From: Hygrocybe punicea
Lineage: Eukaryota > Basidiomycota > Agaricomycetes > Agaricales > Hygrophoraceae
Assembly: GCA_963556145.1 (NCBI GenBank)
Contig: OY744466.1
Coordinates: 372,001-436,000 of the forward strand
Direction of reading: 5' to 3'
DNA: 64,000 nt
Shown here: one piece after another, positions 25,758 to 35,925 of the stretch
How the letters are laid out: each line of letters starts with the position of its first letter
Numbering within the stretch: position 1 is the first letter of the stretch
The notes under the pieces: generated by a model
What the model was told of the DNA's origin: nothing
Database searches by the model: none
The model's input: the letters and a program-made list of their open reading frames with translations, nothing else
Translations under genes and position numbers: made by a program

Positions 25758-26390
25758 TGTGGTGTCCTCTGCTGTGAGCAGAGTGCCAGTGAAACGGAAA
25801 GTTTTGTCACCATACAGGGTTGCTGGACCTCAGCCCTGCGAAGCAGGTGGTGAATCCAGAACGGAAAGTTCTTGGTGGGTCTGGTGGGTTGTTCTTGGTT
25901 GTTCCGGTTGTTTGTTCTTGGTTAGCCTGGTAAGCCCGGTAGGTTGCTTGTTTTTTCTGTCTCTTTGCCTAATAACACCCCCCCCATATGGTGACCTCTG
26001 CTGTGAGCAGAGTGCCAGTGAAACAGAAAGTTTCATCACTATACAGGGTTGCCGGACCTCAGCCCCTGCAAAGCAGGTGGTGAATCCAGAACAGAAAGTT
26101 CTTGGTTGGTCCGGTGAGTTATTTGCTCTGGTGGGTTAGTCCGGTAGAATGTTCTCAGTTTTGCTGGTAGGATGTTCTTGGTTGGTCCAGTGGTTGTTTT
26201 TGGTTGACTCAGTGGGACATTCTTGGATGGCCTGGTAGGATGCTACTTCTCTGTTTCTGTTTGCCTCCCCTGTGTGGTGACCTCCACTGTGAGCAGAGTG
26301 CCCATGAAATAGAAAGTTTCGTCACCATATAAAGCTTGACCTGAGCCCCTGCCTAGCAAATGGTGAATCCAGAATGCAAAGTTCTTGGTT
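25758..26390 (+). repeat. Three tandem copies of a ~230-285 bp repeat with a hairpin
   Basis: Copies begin near 25760, 25989 and 26275. Each starts TGGTGACCTCTGCTGTGAGC or a variant and continues with AGAGTGCCAGTGAAAC, GAAAGTTTCGTCACCATA, a CCTCAGCCCC stretch and GGTGAATCCAGAA, followed by GTTCTTGG/GGT-rich filler. CTCTGCTGTGAGCAGAG forms a stem-loop in copies one and two and is weaker in copy three. No gene is evident. Confidence 0.7.
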
Positions 26391-26532
26391 GGACCCCTAG
26401 GTTGTTCCAACACAATTCAATTGTTATAACACCAGGATACTTTCAATTCATACACTGGAGGAAAGTTAAAGATAACTACAATTCCAAAATCAAATGAGCA
26501 ATGAACTGGAGATTTTAAACCTAAAAACATGG

Positions 26533-28733: not shown

Positions 28734-28796
28734 TGAAACCCTAAGACTCAATTTGCACAGAATTTACACCAATTTCCTAAGGCCAATCCAAAGGAT

Positions 28797-29358
28797 TGTT
28801 ACGGATCGCTGTTCTTATGGCGGACTCCGGCAACAAAGAACCAAACGAGGATGATTGATAAAGAGAGAACTGAGTACAAACAAATGTACGAAGAGGGAGG
28901 AGTCTAGGTATCTGGTAGCAATCGGGGGAAGAGTAGCTAGACTAAACTTAAGGCTATTGACTACAATTGTCCGTGACTAAATACTGTCGAACGACTTTAG
29001 GGCTGGCTTCTTCGTCATGTGTGGCTGCGTCGAGGATAAGCTCCGAGATGAACGGCGTCTTCGTGTACTTCGTGGTCTGTGCGTTTTAGGGTGCCAACGT
29101 GGTGGCCATCGGCTGCGTTGCATGTCTGGTGTCAACAGACAGCTGATCCGGTGATTATGCTGTGCGGTATTGTTAAGAGCTTGTAACAACGTGTATGATG
29201 TATCGGCGGCGATCGGATGACGAGGGTAGTCATGTGGATTCGGATATCGTCGTTGATTGTTGTCGATGATGTTTTGGACCCAAGCTATGACGTTGTTTTG
29301 TGACGTGGTGTCAGAGTCGGGGTCAGAAACGGGGGTTAGATCGGGGTAAAAGGTAACA
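28797..29358 (-). repeat. 3' LTR of chromovirus A
   Basis: Begins TGTTACGGATCGCT and ends AAAAGGTAACA. It is the 3' LTR because pol lies to its right on minus and the purine tract (29359-29396) adjoins it. Confidence 0.93.
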
Positions 29359-29825
29359 ATACCCCCGGAACAAGGGGAATCGTCCCGATTAACCGGAGGG
29401 AAAACGGAATCATACACGGCGGTGCAATCGATGAACTCGCGGTACGGATCGACGGGGTCATCGGTGAACCAGACAGGGACAGTCGGGGGAACAGCAGGAC
29501 GGGGAGGGCCAATGGGACGCACGGAGTAAAACGTACGGGGGGTGAAGAAGAGGTCAATGCCGAGATGAGCGATGTCAGACGTGAGGTGGGTGGAGCCAAA
29601 TGAAGAAGGGGGCATTAGGTCGACGGCGAAGCGAACATCGCGGCCACAGAGACGTCGTTTCGAACGAGGGATACGGAAGCGAGGAGGAAGGTGATGAAAG
29701 TATGGTGAGGAAGGAAGATAAACAGCGGAGGCAGACATAGAGGAATGAAGGCAAAGGGCGAAAGAAGGGAAAGAAAGGAAAACAAACGATATATACAAAA
29801 GAGAAAGATTAGGGTAGGCATTCAA
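28977..29825 (-). CDS. Third open frame of chromovirus A running into the 3' LTR
   Basis: A frame of up to 282 codons overlaps the last codons of pol and crosses the purine tract into the LTR. An ATG at about 29740 (MSASAVYLPSS) could start a 254-residue product. It is rich in Pro, Arg and Ser, with RSKRRLCGRDVRFAVDLMPP, VWFTDDPVDPYREFIDCTAV and a basic C-terminus encoded in the LTR. I recognise no domain. Its length, and a faint resemblance to ORF1 of element B, make it worth noting; it may equally be a chance frame. Confidence 0.35.
   Translation of the reverse strand: MNAYPNLSLLYISFVFLSFPSFALCLHSSMSASAVYLPSSPYFHHLPPRFRIPRSKRRLCGRDVRFAVDLMPPSSFGSTHLTSDIAHLGIDLFFTPRTFYSVRPIGPPRPAVPPTVPVWFTDDPVDPYREFIDCTAVYDSVFPPVNRDDSPCSGGIVTFYPDLTPVSDPDSDTTSQNNVIAWVQNIIDNNQRRYPNPHDYPRHPIAADTSYTLLQALNNTAQHNHRISCLLTPDMQRSRWPPRWHPKTHRPRSTRRRRSSRSLSSTQPHMTKKPALKSFDSI
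29359..29396 (-). other. Polypurine-tract region of chromovirus A
   Basis: Sense strand reads ...TTGTTCCGGGGGTAT directly before the LTR. The 38 bp are identical to the matching place in element B (1233-1270). Confidence 0.65.
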
Positions 29826-32800
29826 AACACGAGGTGATCGGGATTAACGGGATGATCGTGGGTAAAAGAGGAAGGAAGAAGGGAAAAACGATGTGGAGTT
29901 GAAATATCATATTCGTGAGAAAGGGCGGCAGAGGGGATTGGTGAGGGAAGGTGATAAAAATGAACAATAGGGAAAGCGTAAGGACAGAGTTTCTTGCGTA
30001 AATTGAAGTCGAGATTACCGAAGCCGGTAGTATTGGTGATTTGGGCAGGTGCGATGACGGGAGAGGAGATTTCGATGATGGATGTGACGGCATCAATGGG
30101 AGCGGTTTCATAGAGATATGCGTGAGTGATGCCGGGGGGAAAGAGGTATTTGCGGAATTCGTGGTCTTTCGAACCATCACGGATGAGGGCGGCATTGTGT
30201 GGGTAAATTGCAAGCAAAATAGAAGAGGAAGAGAAAGGAGGGATAAAGGAAGGGGGGAGAGTAAAAAGAGAACGAAGGGATAAAGAAGAAGGGGCGCGGG
30301 GATGTAATTTATGGAAATCATTGACGAGATCCTGGCAATATGCAGTTTCGGATGCAGGGATCCAGGAATCTTCGTCACGAGGATAGTCGAGCCAATGTAC
30401 CAAGTAATATAATTTGTTACGGCGTATGCGGGAGTCAAGGATATGTTCGATTTCGTAATGATCGTCGTTGTCGATAATATCAGGAGGTGGTCGAAGATGG
30501 TATTTCTGTTGTATGGAGGAAGAAGGCGGTTGGAATGGCGAAAGGAGAGCGACGTTAAATATGGGAAAGATCTTCCAGGTTTTCGGTAATTTCAACTTGT
30601 ATGACGATGACCCGATTTTGTCGAGGACGGTAAAAGGACCGAATTTTTGATTGTCAAGCTTTTTACTTGGACGATCTGTGGTCAGATTTTTTCCGTTTAG
30701 CCAGACTTTATCACCAGGAGAAAAGACAATTTTCTTGACATGACTGTCATACTTATCCTTCATGGTCTGTCTCGTAACGTCTGCAATTTCGCCTATTTTC
30801 TGTTGTATTGATTTCATTCGTGTGATGAAATCATTAACGGCTTCGTTTGCGATAGGAATATGCTTGTCGAAGGTGAGACCGGTCCAAGGATGTTGTCCTT
30901 GTGTGGCGAAGAAAGGGGAAGTCTTAATCGCGGATGATTCACGATTGGCTAATGCAAATTCGGCAAGGGCGAGCCATTCGTGCCAATCATCTTGTCGGTA
31001 ATTGGTGAAAAAACGAAGGAAAATTTCGAGTTCTTGATTCATTCGTTCTGTTTGTCCATCAGCGCGTGGATGATATGCTGTTGTTGGACGTCCTTTGATA
31101 CCGATCAAGGAATATAATTCAGTGATAAAACGTGAAATGAAGACCGAGCCACGATCAGAGATGATGAAGCGGGGCATGCCGAAACGTTTGAAGACGTGAT
31201 CCCGGAACAAGCGTGCCCATCCTTCTGATGTCAACGTTGTATTCGTGGCGATAAAGATCGGATGTTTTGATCGTTTGTCAACGATGACCAGAATGGCATC
31301 AAAGCCATGTGATTCAGGCAAAGGGCCAATCATGTCGACAGAAATCATATGCCAATTATACGGTGGTACATCGTGAGGGAAAAGTTGTCCAAATTGTTTT
31401 CCTCGTCGTGGCTTATTTTGTTGACATTCGGTACAACCAATAATATACCGTTCGACGTCTTCTCGGATGGTTGGCCATGTTGTTGTCCGTGAGATCAATT
31501 CAATCGTTTTATCACGTCCGGGATGGCCTGCGGTAGGATTATCATGATGTAGGGAAATGATATTGTCGTATGTAGAGGTTGCATGAAGTATTTGTCGGAT
31601 CGTTTGTTCTGGTAATATGAATAATGAGTCAGGAAGACCGATCATACCTTCATTGTCCTTTTCTTTGGGTTTATGATCGACGCGTCGTGAAAGGAGATCG
31701 GCTTTTTTGTTCTGCGATCCCTTGCGATATAATAAACGGAAATCACAGTCTTGTAGGAATGCGATCCAACGAGCCTGTCGTCGAGTGAGATCTTGCGGTT
31801 TACGGTAATATTCGAGGTTGCGGTGGTCAGTAAAAATATCAATTTGTTCTTTTGCGCCGAGAAGAAAATGTCGCCATTCTTCGAAACTTCGTATAATCGC
31901 AAGTAATTCTTTGTCGAAGATTTGGTAATTGCGTTCTGCTGGTGTCATTGTTGTTGACATGTATGCAACAGGGCGGAAAAGACCGTCGGGTTGTTCTTGA
32001 GATAGGATAGCACCGATCGCATAATCTGATGCGTCACATTCGATGATGAATTTCTTATCGGGGACAGGTAATACGAGGATTGGATCGGTAGTAATGATGG
32101 TTTTCAATCGATCGAATGCATTTTGTTGTTCTTCTGTCCAATCCCATTTTGCTTTTCCCGTTAATTTATGTAATGGGCTTGCGATCTGTGAGAAGTTTTC
32201 AACGAAACGACGATAGAAATTCAGGAAACCAATGAATCGTTGTAATTCGGTTTGGTTTGTTGGAACGGGCCAATCAGTAATGGCATTAGTTTTGATGGGA
32301 TCCATCTGAACTTGGCCATCCCCGACAATAAGTCCAAGATAATCGACCTTTTCCTTGTCGAATGTACATTTCTTTGGTTTCAAGAAAAGATTGTTCTCGC
32401 GAAAGATCTTCAGAACTTGTTTCGTTCGTTTCTGATTTTCTTCGAGGGATTTAGAGAAAATCAAGATGTCATCCATGTATACCAATAACCATCCTTCACG
32501 TATTTCATATCGGAAAACGTGATTCATCAACCGTTGAAATGTCGGCGGTGAATTCTTCAGGCCAAAGAACATGACCGTTGGTTCGAATAATCCTTTTGGT
32601 GTCAGAAAAGCGGCTTTATGCTCATCGCCTTCCTTGATACGGACATTGTTGAATCCCCATCGTACGTCCAATTTTGTAAAATATTTGGCTTCGGCTAATT
32701 GATTGATTATGTCATTGATCAGCGGTAATGGGTATTTGTCATCGATTGTCCATGAATTCAACCATCGATAATCCTGAATTGGTCGTCGTTCGGCGGCATC

Positions 32801-34102
32801 TTTCTTCGACACAAAGAAGAAAGGAGATGCGTAAGGTGATTTGGAAGGACGAATTCGTCCAGTCTTCAGATTTTCGTCTAAGAACTTGTCGAGGTCTTGT
32901 TTCTCGATTGGTGACAACGGATACAATTTACAATCATGATGATCCGGTGCATCTGGTTTCAACGTTATGGCGTGATCCCACGGTTTTCGTGCCGGTAATT
33001 CATCGAAACCGGATGGTTCGAAAACGTCGCGATATTCATGGTACGTTTCAGGTACTAATTCCTCGAACGTCTTTTCTTTTTGTTGCTCTTGTGCCTTGAT
33101 GGCGAGTTCTGTTGATTTCGTCATGAATGAGCGAAAGTGTATGGGATCCATTGTTTCTTCCATAACTTGATCGAACCAAAGGGGTCGTTCCCAAACTACC
33201 GTGTCAAATTCAGTTGAACGTATTGTTGATGACGTTCCGCAACCAGAAAGACATCGAGAAAACTTGATCTCGTTTTCTCGCCAATCAATTTCTGGGTTAT
33301 GCTTCTTCAACCAATCGTATCCGAGGAAAACATCCATCTTGGCCAATGTTGTTACTGCAAAACGAAGTAATTCCTGATGATCACCGATACGCATTTGCAA
33401 TTCACAATATTCCGTGATCTGTCCTGTTTTTGGTTGTGTTCCATCACTCATATAGGAATTGAACGGATTCAGGTATGGTTTCGTCAGAATGTTGTGTGCT
33501 TTAACGTATCCGACGTCGATGGCGCAAATAGTACATCCGCAGTCAATTAGACCCGTCATGGGATATTGTCGTCCATCCTGTGGAACGGAGACAAAACCAT
33601 GAACCAATAAGGCCATACGGAGTTCGGAATCCTTTTGTGTTAAAGCTCGTATTGGTTCCAATATCCGTGGTTCTTGCGGTGTATTCTGTGGCATGTTTTG
33701 TACTAACCATTGTACTGCTTCTGCGATAGGTCGTCGATTAAGTGTTAAGACGAGTCCTGGTGAAATCTTGTCCGTCCATTGGTCATGGATGTCCCAATCA
33801 TTCAAGATGTCAAGGGCATAACCCATCGTAGTCGAGCGAATAGCAACGATCGTTTCCATCGCATTGAATTCGGATTCGATTGTTGTTTTTCTTTTCTGGG
33901 ATTCGGTTTTCTTTTCTTCGTTTGCAACATGGGTATCTCGCCACGTGTTGCTTTCCTCTTTCGGCTCTGTTGTCGGTGTTTGTCTCAGTTCGTTGCGGAG
34001 GACTTTGAGTTTGGTGAAAACGTTGTCAAATTGTTTACATACGTATACATCTTTCTCGAGTCGTGCGATCGTGGCCTCCTGCGCTTCACGTCGCTTCTTC
34101 AA
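29822..34102 (-). CDS. pol: Chromovirus Pol polyprotein with C-terminal ASCH-like domain
   Basis: About 1426 residues. There is no ATG at its 5' end, so it is probably made as Gag-Pol. In order: aspartic protease with LIDCGCT (about 185-191; Cys in place of the usual Ser or Thr of D-S/T-G); reverse transcriptase (about 395-600) with KLDVRWGF and the catalytic YMDD near 542; RNase H from about 686 (ECDASDYAIG); integrase zinc finger (H852/H860, C890/C893) and D923, D983, E1019 core; a GPF/Y-like linker (KFGPF); chromodomain (about 1216-1265, YLVHWLDYPRDEDSWIP). Residues about 1294-1395 follow with ILLAIYPHNAALIRDG, HEFRKYLFP, AYLYETAPIDAV and a beta-rich tail, matching the ASCH/PUA-like fold pattern. 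No stop or shift interrupts it. Confidence 0.93.
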   Translation of the reverse strand: MKKRREAQEATIARLEKDVYVCKQFDNVFTKLKVLRNELRQTPTTEPKEESNTWRDTHVANEEKKTESQKRKTTIESEFNAMETIVAIRSTTMGYALDILNDWDIHDQWTDKISPGLVLTLNRRPIAEAVQWLVQNMPQNTPQEPRILEPIRALTQKDSELRMALLVHGFVSVPQDGRQYPMTGLIDCGCTICAIDVGYVKAHNILTKPYLNPFNSYMSDGTQPKTGQITEYCELQMRIGDHQELLRFAVTTLAKMDVFLGYDWLKKHNPEIDWRENEIKFSRCLSGCGTSSTIRSTEFDTVVWERPLWFDQVMEETMDPIHFRSFMTKSTELAIKAQEQQKEKTFEELVPETYHEYRDVFEPSGFDELPARKPWDHAITLKPDAPDHHDCKLYPLSPIEKQDLDKFLDENLKTGRIRPSKSPYASPFFFVSKKDAAERRPIQDYRWLNSWTIDDKYPLPLINDIINQLAEAKYFTKLDVRWGFNNVRIKEGDEHKAAFLTPKGLFEPTVMFFGLKNSPPTFQRLMNHVFRYEIREGWLLVYMDDILIFSKSLEENQKRTKQVLKIFRENNLFLKPKKCTFDKEKVDYLGLIVGDGQVQMDPIKTNAITDWPVPTNQTELQRFIGFLNFYRRFVENFSQIASPLHKLTGKAKWDWTEEQQNAFDRLKTIITTDPILVLPVPDKKFIIECDASDYAIGAILSQEQPDGLFRPVAYMSTTMTPAERNYQIFDKELLAIIRSFEEWRHFLLGAKEQIDIFTDHRNLEYYRKPQDLTRRQARWIAFLQDCDFRLLYRKGSQNKKADLLSRRVDHKPKEKDNEGMIGLPDSLFILPEQTIRQILHATSTYDNIISLHHDNPTAGHPGRDKTIELISRTTTWPTIREDVERYIIGCTECQQNKPRRGKQFGQLFPHDVPPYNWHMISVDMIGPLPESHGFDAILVIVDKRSKHPIFIATNTTLTSEGWARLFRDHVFKRFGMPRFIISDRGSVFISRFITELYSLIGIKGRPTTAYHPRADGQTERMNQELEIFLRFFTNYRQDDWHEWLALAEFALANRESSAIKTSPFFATQGQHPWTGLTFDKHIPIANEAVNDFITRMKSIQQKIGEIADVTRQTMKDKYDSHVKKIVFSPGDKVWLNGKNLTTDRPSKKLDNQKFGPFTVLDKIGSSSYKLKLPKTWKIFPIFNVALLSPFQPPSSSIQQKYHLRPPPDIIDNDDHYEIEHILDSRIRRNKLYYLVHWLDYPRDEDSWIPASETAYCQDLVNDFHKLHPRAPSSLSLRSLFTLPPSFIPPFSSSSILLAIYPHNAALIRDGSKDHEFRKYLFPPGITHAYLYETAPIDAVTSIIEISSPVIAPAQITNTTGFGNLDFNLRKKLCPYAFPIVHFYHLPSPIPSAALSHEYDISTPHRFSLLPSSFTHDHPVNPDHLVF

Positions 34103-35112
34103 AAACCCTCTTGCTTCAATTTCAACGCCGTCAACTCATCCATCAATGCGGCAATCTGGGCGTCTTTGCCATCGTCTTGCTGTTGTTTCGGTGTTTGTTG
34201 AACGGTTTCCATAGAACGAATCTGTTGCCGTCCTTGTTGTTCCGGACAGTTGCGTGAGATATGTCCGGGTTGTCGACATTTAAAACAAATTCCTTTCTTC
34301 ATGAAATCCAACCGTTGTTCATCTGTCAAGCGAGTAAACGTTTGCCGTTGAGGTAACGTTTGTCGTTTATCGATGTCCATCGGGACAGATTCCGACTGTG
34401 GGCGAGGTGCTGATGTTTGTTGTGTTCGAGGAGTACTCGATGTGGCTGTCGTGTTTGGGTTGTATCGTGTTTTTGCGGGTAGATTCATCGATCGTACTTG
34501 TTCCTGTCGACGTCGCCATTGCTGATCAAGCCTGACCGTTTGTTCGCGCCATTCTTCGATGGTAGTTGGGATCATCATCCCAGTATAGATCTGGTCGATC
34601 AATGGTTTGTTCATGTGGAGTTCGACGAGTTGAATGAGATAACTCTCGTTGAACATTTCGCTTAGCCCAGCAAGACGTCGGAGAGTATCAAACTCGATCC
34701 AGAATTCGTCTGCTGTCATTTTTCCTTGACGCAAGTCGTTCAACTTTGTCAATGCGTCCTTCTTCTGATCCGGTTTTTCAAAGTGACGTCTAAATTCCTT
34801 CGTGAAGTCGTCCAGACTTCCGAAGTTGACGGGGTCGTGCTGCAAGGCAATGTCGACGTACTCGTCCGCCCATCGTCCGGCGAGTCCGCCTTGTAAATAC
34901 GAGAGGATAAAAAGGATTTGCTTTTCCTCTGAATCGAAAGCGGTTCTGTTTGCTCGGATGTAGATATGGGCACTTCGGAGGAATGTTTTGAATCCCGCCC
35001 TGTTTCCATCATATTTAGCCGGCGGAGCGATATGAGATTTGGGAGATGACGGGGCTGCGGGTGCAATAGTGGTGGTGTCTTGGACTTCATGGTTTTCTTC
35101 GGTGTCTGACAT
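34099..35112 (-). CDS. gag: Chromovirus Gag
   Basis: 337 residues from ATG 35112 to TGA 34099-34101. Residues about 45-205 form the helical retrotransposon gag region (FILSYLQGGLAGRWADEYVD, FTKEFRRHFEKPDQKKDA, IEEWREQTVRLDQQWRRRQE). A Pro/Ser/Gln-rich linker follows. A CCHC zinc knuckle (CFKCRQPGHISRNC, 276-289) binds nucleic acid. The final residues are encoded by a slippery heptamer next to the stop, so most ribosomes should release Gag and a few continue into Pol. The leader from the LTR to the ATG is 246 nt. Confidence 0.92.
   Translation of the reverse strand: MSDTEENHEVQDTTTIAPAAPSSPKSHIAPPAKYDGNRAGFKTFLRSAHIYIRANRTAFDSEEKQILFILSYLQGGLAGRWADEYVDIALQHDPVNFGSLDDFTKEFRRHFEKPDQKKDALTKLNDLRQGKMTADEFWIEFDTLRRLAGLSEMFNESYLIQLVELHMNKPLIDQIYTGMMIPTTIEEWREQTVRLDQQWRRRQEQVRSMNLPAKTRYNPNTTATSSTPRTQQTSAPRPQSESVPMDIDKRQTLPQRQTFTRLTDEQRLDFMKKGICFKCRQPGHISRNCPEQQGRQQIRSMETVQQTPKQQQDDGKDAQIAALMDELTALKLKQEGF
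34102..34108 (-). promoter_or_regulatory. Programmed -1 frameshift heptamer G GGT TTT before the gag stop
   Basis: On the sense strand the last Gag codons are GAG GGT TTT TGA. The heptamer G-GGT-TTT is of the classical X-XXY-YYZ type in the gag frame. A slip of one base back reads GGG TTT TTG AAG and enters the pol frame, which is open from here. The first Met in the pol frame is about 80 codons in, so frameshifting is the simplest route to Pol. I cannot judge a downstream pseudoknot. Confidence 0.72.
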
Positions 35113-35345
35113 TCTGGTGTGTATGTGTGTTTGATGGTGAAGAGCAAGTGTTGAAGCAGAAAATGATGGCGGGGGGAAAGACGGGGGTCGGAAGGTAGTC
35201 TGTTCTGCGACATAGTGGTCGAAATCGTCGTCAGAGGAATCTGACGTCTCGGGTGCAAGGTGATATTCGTCGTCGTGTTCCCAGTTTGGGGTTCGGTATC
35301 GTCGCGGTTCCAGGTTGTTTTGGTTCGATGTCGGGGGAGTAAAGG

Positions 35346-35356
35346 AAGTTTAGTCT
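35346..35356 (-). other. Self-primer binding site of chromovirus A
   Basis: Sense strand AGACTAAACTT, 2 nt from the LTR border. The LTR contains the exact complement AAGTTTAGTCT on the sense strand at 35501-35511. This equals the Tf1 layout, in which the transcript's own 5' end folds back and primes. It predicts a transcript start near 35511 on minus. Confidence 0.75.
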
Positions 35357-35358
35357 TA

Positions 35359-35920
35359 TGTTACGGATCGCTGTTCTTATGGCGGACTCCGGCAACAAAG
35401 AACCAAACGAGGATGATTGATAAAGAGAGAACTGAGTACAAACAAATGTACGAAGAGGGAGGAGTCTAGGTATCTGATAGCAATCGGGGGAAGAGTAGCT
35501 AGACTAAACTTAAGGCTATTGACTACAATTGTCCGTGACTAAATACTGTCGAACGACTTTAGGGCTGGCTTCTTCGTCATGTGTGGCTGCGTCGAGGATA
35601 AGCTCCGAGATGAACGGCGTCTTCGTGTACTTCGTGGTCTGTGCGTTTTAGGGTGCCAACGTGGTGGCCATCGGCTGCGTTGCATGTCTGGTGTCAACAG
35701 ACAGCTGATCCGGTGATTATGCTGTGCGGTATTGTTAAGAGCTTGTAACAACGTGTATGATGTATCGGCGGCGATCGGATGACGAGGGTAGTCATGTGGA
35801 TTCGGATATCGTCGTTGATTGTCGTCGATGATGTTTTGGACCCAAGCTATGACGTTGTTTTGTGACATGGTGTCAGAGTCGGGGTCAGAAACGGGGGTTA
35901 GATCGGGGTAAAAGGTAACA
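35359..35920 (-). repeat. 5' LTR of chromovirus A
   Basis: 562 bp, TGTTAC...GTAACA, the same length as the partner. It carries the self-primer sequence at 35501-35511 and must hold the promoter. Confidence 0.93.
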
Positions 35921-35925
35921 AGGAT

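Follow-up and report, generated by a model that had tools for sequence, protein, structure and literature searches.

A predicted ASCH-fold domain follows the chromodomain at the Pol C-terminus of a Ty3/gypsy element in Hygrocybe punicea

Fungal chromoviruses, the Tcn1-like and other chromodomain-bearing Ty3/gypsy elements, carry gag followed by protease, reverse transcriptase, RNase H, integrase and chromodomain between long terminal repeats (LTRs) (PMC2864245). The same layout is found in a complete Ty3/gypsy element on the minus strand (28797-35920) of a 64,000-nucleotide stretch of Hygrocybe punicea DNA (contig OY744466.1, positions 372,001 to 436,000; the whole stretch is referred to below as the window). 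Unlike those elements, it continues past the chromodomain into an ASCH-fold domain at the end of Pol, and no such domain is mentioned in the passages of PMC2864245 consulted. That source does describe basidiomycete elements with a dUTPase at differing Pol positions, a domain captured in several places, and one chromovirus figure legend there refers to an additional open reading frame (ORF) of unknown function. ASCH proteins have a GxKxxxxR motif in common, and in ZmASCH residues Tyr47, Lys53 and Ser128 are assigned to nucleic-acid binding and cleavage (PMC5615036). No report pairing ASCH or PUA domains with a retrotransposon Pol was found among open-licence PubMed Central papers, in agreement with an earlier note on this DNA, made from the sequence alone, which knew of no described chromovirus with such a fusion; retrotransposition is not mentioned in the passages of PMC7641849 consulted.

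The earlier note held that pol stays open for about 160 codons beyond the chromodomain and ends in an ASCH/PUA-like domain. The frame does run on for 161 residues after the Pfam chromodomain end (Pol 1265), the peptides quoted for the tail are present in the translation, and the domain assignment is supported by both predicted fold and homology. Positions 29822-30225 correspond to Pol 1293-1426 plus the stop codon; the predicted fold begins a few residues earlier, so that the domain spans Pol ~1290-1426 (29825..30235, minus strand). An AlphaFold2 (AF2) model of the tail, made with 60 database homologues, reached a pLDDT of 96.1 and a pTM of 0.89, and the match to the PUA fold was borne out by Foldseek and VIA: ASCH structures ranked top in both, EVE and YTH were also matched, and the closest structures after ZmASCH were those of the TRIP4 ASCH domain, several with double-stranded DNA (dsDNA). 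A profile of the tail matched ZmASCH in the PDB (E = 1.7e-5). Pfam ASCH was matched by 5 of 15 tails (E<=10, best 0.056) and by 19 of 61 aligned homologues (E<=1, best 1.1e-5). The GxKxxxxR motif is intact (G25-S-K27-DHEF-R32 in tail numbering, Pol 1310-1317), and the columns conserved at 90% or more in the 61-row alignment are I14, P16, I22, K27, E30, R32, K33, Y46, E47, T48, P50 and F81. Counting against the assignment, the window tail itself had no Pfam match at E<=10, failing the PF04266 cut-off (which is a library's threshold for detection and does not define the domain biologically), and the PF04266 (Pfam ASCH) model detected no copies of the tail in the genome. A search of the window tail against NCBIfam also gave no match. 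On balance we are close to certain that the window tail is an ASCH domain.

The same module is present in other elements. At least 151 stretches of the same genome match the tail (150 candidates were scored, and some stretches are two pieces of one copy). In a second family (family 2; Pol frame 1491; L051 and L068) the ASCH domain is 37-40% identical to that of the window and follows the integrase C-terminal domain at the Pol C-terminus; its Pol has no chromodomain match at E<=0.1, and ASCH occupies the usual chromodomain position. Family 2 retains the K and R of the motif and not the G. Of the 151 stretches listed, 47 align with the family-2 domain almost end to end at an identity of at least 92%, and 13 of these, the query included, are identical to it. 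In a protein search, the tail region of the full Pol of the window family matched none of 310 candidates at E<=0.001; more was found by a profile search (64 homologues) and by a search with the family-2 piece (2 of 308 candidates). Alignment A2 omitted four of the 64 homologues (P0016, P0049, P0055 and P0056). P0066, a Pol of 1325 residues, has the family-2 layout and a domain 65% identical to that of family 2. In P0067 the end of a dUTPase (residues 2-44), ASCH (~51-190) and then integrase follow one another in one frame; there is no ASCH at the end of this protein, the module lying upstream of integrase instead. The fusion seen in the window recurs in P0044, where a Pfam chromodomain precedes ASCH, and P0024 and P0028 read as though they begin in the end of a chromodomain, with no Pfam chromodomain match in P0024. 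In every layout examined, ASCH adjoins integrase or its chromodomain.

Two further loci, L052 (G000:C2:7558100-7561200) and L069 (G000:C40:2205700-2208600), are open stretches 93% identical to each other. They lie in frames of 1659 and 1668 codons, and the part covered was the final 651 and 625 codons, respectively. Their last 254 residues comprise an integrase C-terminal domain and ASCH, the latter 75-81% identical to family 2, preceded by an unrelated open stretch without a Pfam match. They are possibly a non-autonomous derivative that retains just this domain pair.

An ordinary chromovirus C-terminus was considered for the window tail and rejected, as most of the other chromodomain frames compared in the genome end soon after the chromodomain, and none of these loci has an ASCH match. 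Fifteen regions were taken for this comparison (L074-L088), L085 belonging to the window family and the rest lying around other chromodomain matches. When both tails were compared with 17 control loci (L074-L090), only L085 matched (E = 5e-64) and none of the others fell below 0.36; a chromodomain-less relative, L089, is among the loci without ASCH. At ten loci (L074, L076-L083 and L086) the frame stops 22-54 residues past the chromodomain motif, and one of these (L081) has lost most of its integrase; the number of independent cases is below ten, as these loci reduce to about three families and L086. At L075 the frame runs for 95 residues past the chromodomain with no ASCH, at L084 and L087 the longest frame stops short of the chromodomain, and L088 resembles an SNF2-type protein of the host.

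The nearest relatives of the Pol domain outside elements are small stand-alone fungal proteins (for example P0002 of Ganoderma, P0005 of Hymenopellis and P0025 of Pleurotus), with E-values down to 3.7e-36 against the profile. The Hygrocybe genome has a stand-alone gene of its own, L071, whose two pieces share 50-52% identity with the Hymenopellis protein and are separated by an intron-like gap of ~80 bases. Because the stand-alone form is widespread, the domain was probably taken from a host gene by the element. In a 73-row tree, built without P0016, P0041, P0049, P0055-P0058 or P0063 and with parts of P0066 and P0067, 20 of the 21 element rows grouped together (89/93) beside a mostly basidiomycete group of 27 stand-alone proteins (98/92), and P0044 fell apart from them without support. 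A smaller tree of 38 rows, among them L071, 25 stand-alone proteins from the database and six tails out of the 15, did not recover the element grouping; branches were long, and one clade for all 12 element rows was not rejected (approximately unbiased test, p = 0.418). In a tree of RNase H-integrase (14 rows, with long-branch warnings), the chromodomain and chromodomain-less carriers lay on opposite sides of a long branch. From this placement and the domain trees we infer either an exchange of the domain between element lineages or more than one capture.

In this class of element, targeting is the textbook role of the chromodomain. We propose that the ASCH domain, probably host-derived, may ride on integrase and there bind a nucleic acid at the chromatin target, DNA (modified or unmodified) being the likeliest ligand, and that it might select or retain the site of insertion jointly with the chromodomain. 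That the Pol domain binds RNA, DNA or a modified base is suggested by its fold family, and a dual reader of histone and nucleic acid is a hypothesis for the window element. That ASCH acts as a nucleic-acid reader on target or pre-integration DNA is the reading to which we would give about even odds. A possible, distinctly less probable explanation is that ASCH binds the RNA or complementary DNA (cDNA) of the element itself, with a role in packaging, reverse transcription or protection of cDNA in the particle and no part in target choice. Pol is packaged together with element RNA. ZmASCH binds single-stranded RNA and single-stranded DNA, and the PUA fold has been described as RNA-binding (PMC5615036). 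Against a role in the particle, the nearest structures beyond ZmASCH are those of TRIP4, several of them dsDNA-bound, and the module lies next to integrase or chromodomain and not next to gag or reverse transcriptase, after integrase in the window family, family 2 and P0066 and before it in P0067; because of this position on either side of integrase, integration is favoured over packaging.

A wider form of the target-reader proposal can be put forward tentatively, and we hold it to be slightly less probable than binding of the element's own RNA or cDNA. ASCH may serve fungal Ty3/gypsy elements as a portable accessory module, derived from the host and passed between chromodomain and chromodomain-less lineages, which would read a mark on DNA, such as methylated or oxidised cytosine, for integrase targeting, replace the chromodomain where that is absent and form a dual histone-plus-DNA reader in the window element. 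The genome has five matches to C5-methylase and, at E<=0.01, 138 stretches matching Tet_JBP (PF12851), some of which fall short of the cut-off that most of them pass; both counts are of stretches and not of whole genes. In six decayed copies, the frequency of CpG transitions was that of other C/G transitions multiplied by 1.80-2.58, which fits CpG methylation of the relics without being proof of it; in eight less decayed copies, the window's own excluded, the ratio was 0.87-2.10, the two highest values resting on few events. The excess is not clean, and this tells against the target-reader proposal as a whole: two young copies gave 1.53 and 2.10 on those few events, and the direction of mutation was unpolarised. 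A second, probably nucleic-acid-binding module at the place of the chromodomain, common to lineages that have a chromodomain and lineages that lack one, would make it possible to ask directly whether marks on DNA are read by retroelements alongside those on histones.

Another explanation, which we consider improbable, is that the tail is carried along as a passenger: an extension of the C-terminus, inherited and retained since it folds with the integrase tail, that has no binding function. Selection was assessed in 21 sequences by Nei-Gojobori counts over the C-terminal pol half, and the pooled values, which took in copies with stops in the stretch (L004, L008, L012 and L016), gave pN/pS of 0.061 for RNase H-integrase, 0.031 for the chromodomain, 0.182 for a 27-codon linker and 0.134 for the 134-codon tail. 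In single comparisons with the window, tail dN/dS was 0.03-0.04 in L008, L009, L011 and L017 (dS ~1), integrase-like values. Three observations weigh on our own reading: dN/dS was 0.13-0.31 in the other 6 of the 10 comparisons (L085 0.13; the closer copies L003, L007, L010, L013 and L020 0.14-0.31); in the diverged L085 against the rest the tail pN/pS of 0.237 was not below that of the linker of 27 residues (0.213); and substitution in the tail is faster than in integrase or the chromodomain. The faster evolution relative to integrase also speaks for the passenger, as does the absence of the domain from other chromodomain families in this genome. Against a passenger stand the pooled pN/pS of 0.13 over 134 codons, the inclusion of motif and pocket positions (I14, P16, K27, E30, R32, Y46, E47, T48 and P50) among the conserved columns of the 61 aligned sequences, and retention of ASCH in lineages that differ in its position and neighbours. 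The tail is constrained, though more loosely than the neighbouring domains. The expectation that relatives would conserve it is likewise upheld, as it is retained in a second lineage and is under purifying selection less strict than that on integrase; an unconstrained tail or chance frame is ruled out by fold, homology and pN/pS.

Slightly more doubtful again is an enzymatic role, in which ASCH would be a ZmASCH-like RNase or a YqfB-like amidohydrolase acting on modified cytidine, cleaning RNA or the nucleotide pool ahead of reverse transcription, in parallel to dUTPase. ZmASCH has Mg-dependent RNase activity, itself described as weak (PMC5615036), and YqfB of E. coli is an amidohydrolase that hydrolyses N4-acetylcytidine (PMC6972931). 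The equivalent of ZmASCH Tyr47 (tail Y46, Pol Tyr1331) is invariant in 15 of 15 aligned tails, and in P0067 ASCH comes directly after the dUTPase end. At the position of Lys53, which ZmASCH needs to bind nucleic acid, the window has Asp1337 (tail 52) and family 2 has Ser; this loss weighs on the target-reader proposal as well, and because of it the domain is not filed as a ZmASCH-type ribonuclease; Ser128 lies outside the sequence-aligned stretch of the profile match. By motif spacing, Lys21 and Arg26 of the YqfB triad correspond to K27 and R32 and the nucleophile Thr24 to Glu30, and the amidohydrolase assignment was dropped with the loss of this nucleophile. By alignment, then, the motif and the pocket tyrosine are retained and the known catalytic sets are lost. 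Some further role outside these readings has a very slight chance.

The remainder of the element is that of a chromovirus, with reverse transcriptase, RNase H, integrase and chromodomain in this order in Pol, flanking LTRs and a target duplication; its ORFs, domains and LTRs lie on the minus strand. Pol (29822..34102; 1426 codons and a stop) has Pfam matches above cut-off to RVT_1, RNase H, Integrase_H2C2, SH3_Tf2-1 and Chromo, and its aspartyl protease (RVP_2) and integrase core (rve) score slightly under the cut-offs. Reverse transcriptase occupies Pol 432-592 (32327..32809; PF00078, 7.6e-31), integrase Pol 846-1190 (30533..31567), with an H2C2 zinc domain (PF17921, 8.8e-18), core (PF00665, 5.2e-7, score below cut-off) and SH3_Tf2-1-like C-terminal domain (PF24626, 1.5e-16), and the chromodomain Pol 1216-1265 (30308..30457; PF00385, 1e-11). 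Gag (34099..35112; 337 amino acids) has a capsid domain (Pfam Retrotrans_gag, 8.3e-10) and a CCHC zinc knuckle (zf-CCHC, 1.5e-6). The 3' LTR (28797..29358; 562 bp, TG...CA) and 5' LTR (35359..35920) were located by blastn of the pair, with termini read from the sequence; they are 99.47% identical over 563 bp (3 mismatches, 0 gaps; blastn), and a 5-bp target-site duplication, AGGAT, was read from the flanks (28792..28796 and 35921-35925). Judged by LTR likeness of 99.5% and intact frames, the window copy looks young. Other family copies with open pol frames have 1437 or 1439 codons. The observed/expected CpG ratio is 1.34 for the element (28797-35921) and 0.39 and 0.60 for the flanks (1-28000 and 36001-64000); the low-CpG left flank has, at 25760-26406, units of 77 and 60 nt in three direct copies each, spaced by ~230 and ~285 nt.

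A third ORF (28977..29738, minus strand; 253 amino acids) begins downstream of pol and has its end, together with its C-terminal half, within the 3' LTR; the matching stretch of the other LTR lies at 35539-35920. It has many full-length matches in the genome and is stop-free in 19 of 21 family-1 loci tested, the window copy included. Substitutions were compared in seven loci. In the diverged L009, L011 and L057, dN was ~0.08 and dS ~0.8 before the LTR, dN 0.09-0.10 and dS 0.50-0.59 within it, and dN/dS 0.46-0.60 in the 28 codons upstream of the ATG; four closer copies gave dN/dS of 0.12-0.27 before the LTR, 0.05-0.14 within it and 0.42-0.98 before the ATG. ORF3 had no Pfam match, and single-sequence AF2 (pLDDT 34.7) gave no usable model. 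From its low dN/dS, ORF3 is predicted to be a conserved protein written partly in the LTR.

Among known carriers of the domain, ZmASCH of Zymomonas mobilis (PDB 5gus, 5guq) is a stand-alone bacterial protein with a Lys53 that the Pol domain has not kept, and the human TRIP4 (ASC-1) domain, 15% identical to that of Pol, is part of a transcription coactivator. The stand-alone fungal proteins and L071 belong to the same domain family as the Pol tail; the former are host proteins without retroelement domains, named in their records as 'hypothetical' or 'ASCH domain-containing'. In LTR elements of bdelloid rotifers, as here, accessory modules are common to very different retroelement types; there they are encoded separately, as ORF3 proteins (DEDDy exonuclease, GDSL esterase), whereas here ASCH is fused inside Pol (PMC5408684). 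The capture of dUTPase (PMC2864245) and the rotifer accessory ORFs (PMC5408684), as described in these sources, are precedents for the ASCH domain in Pol.
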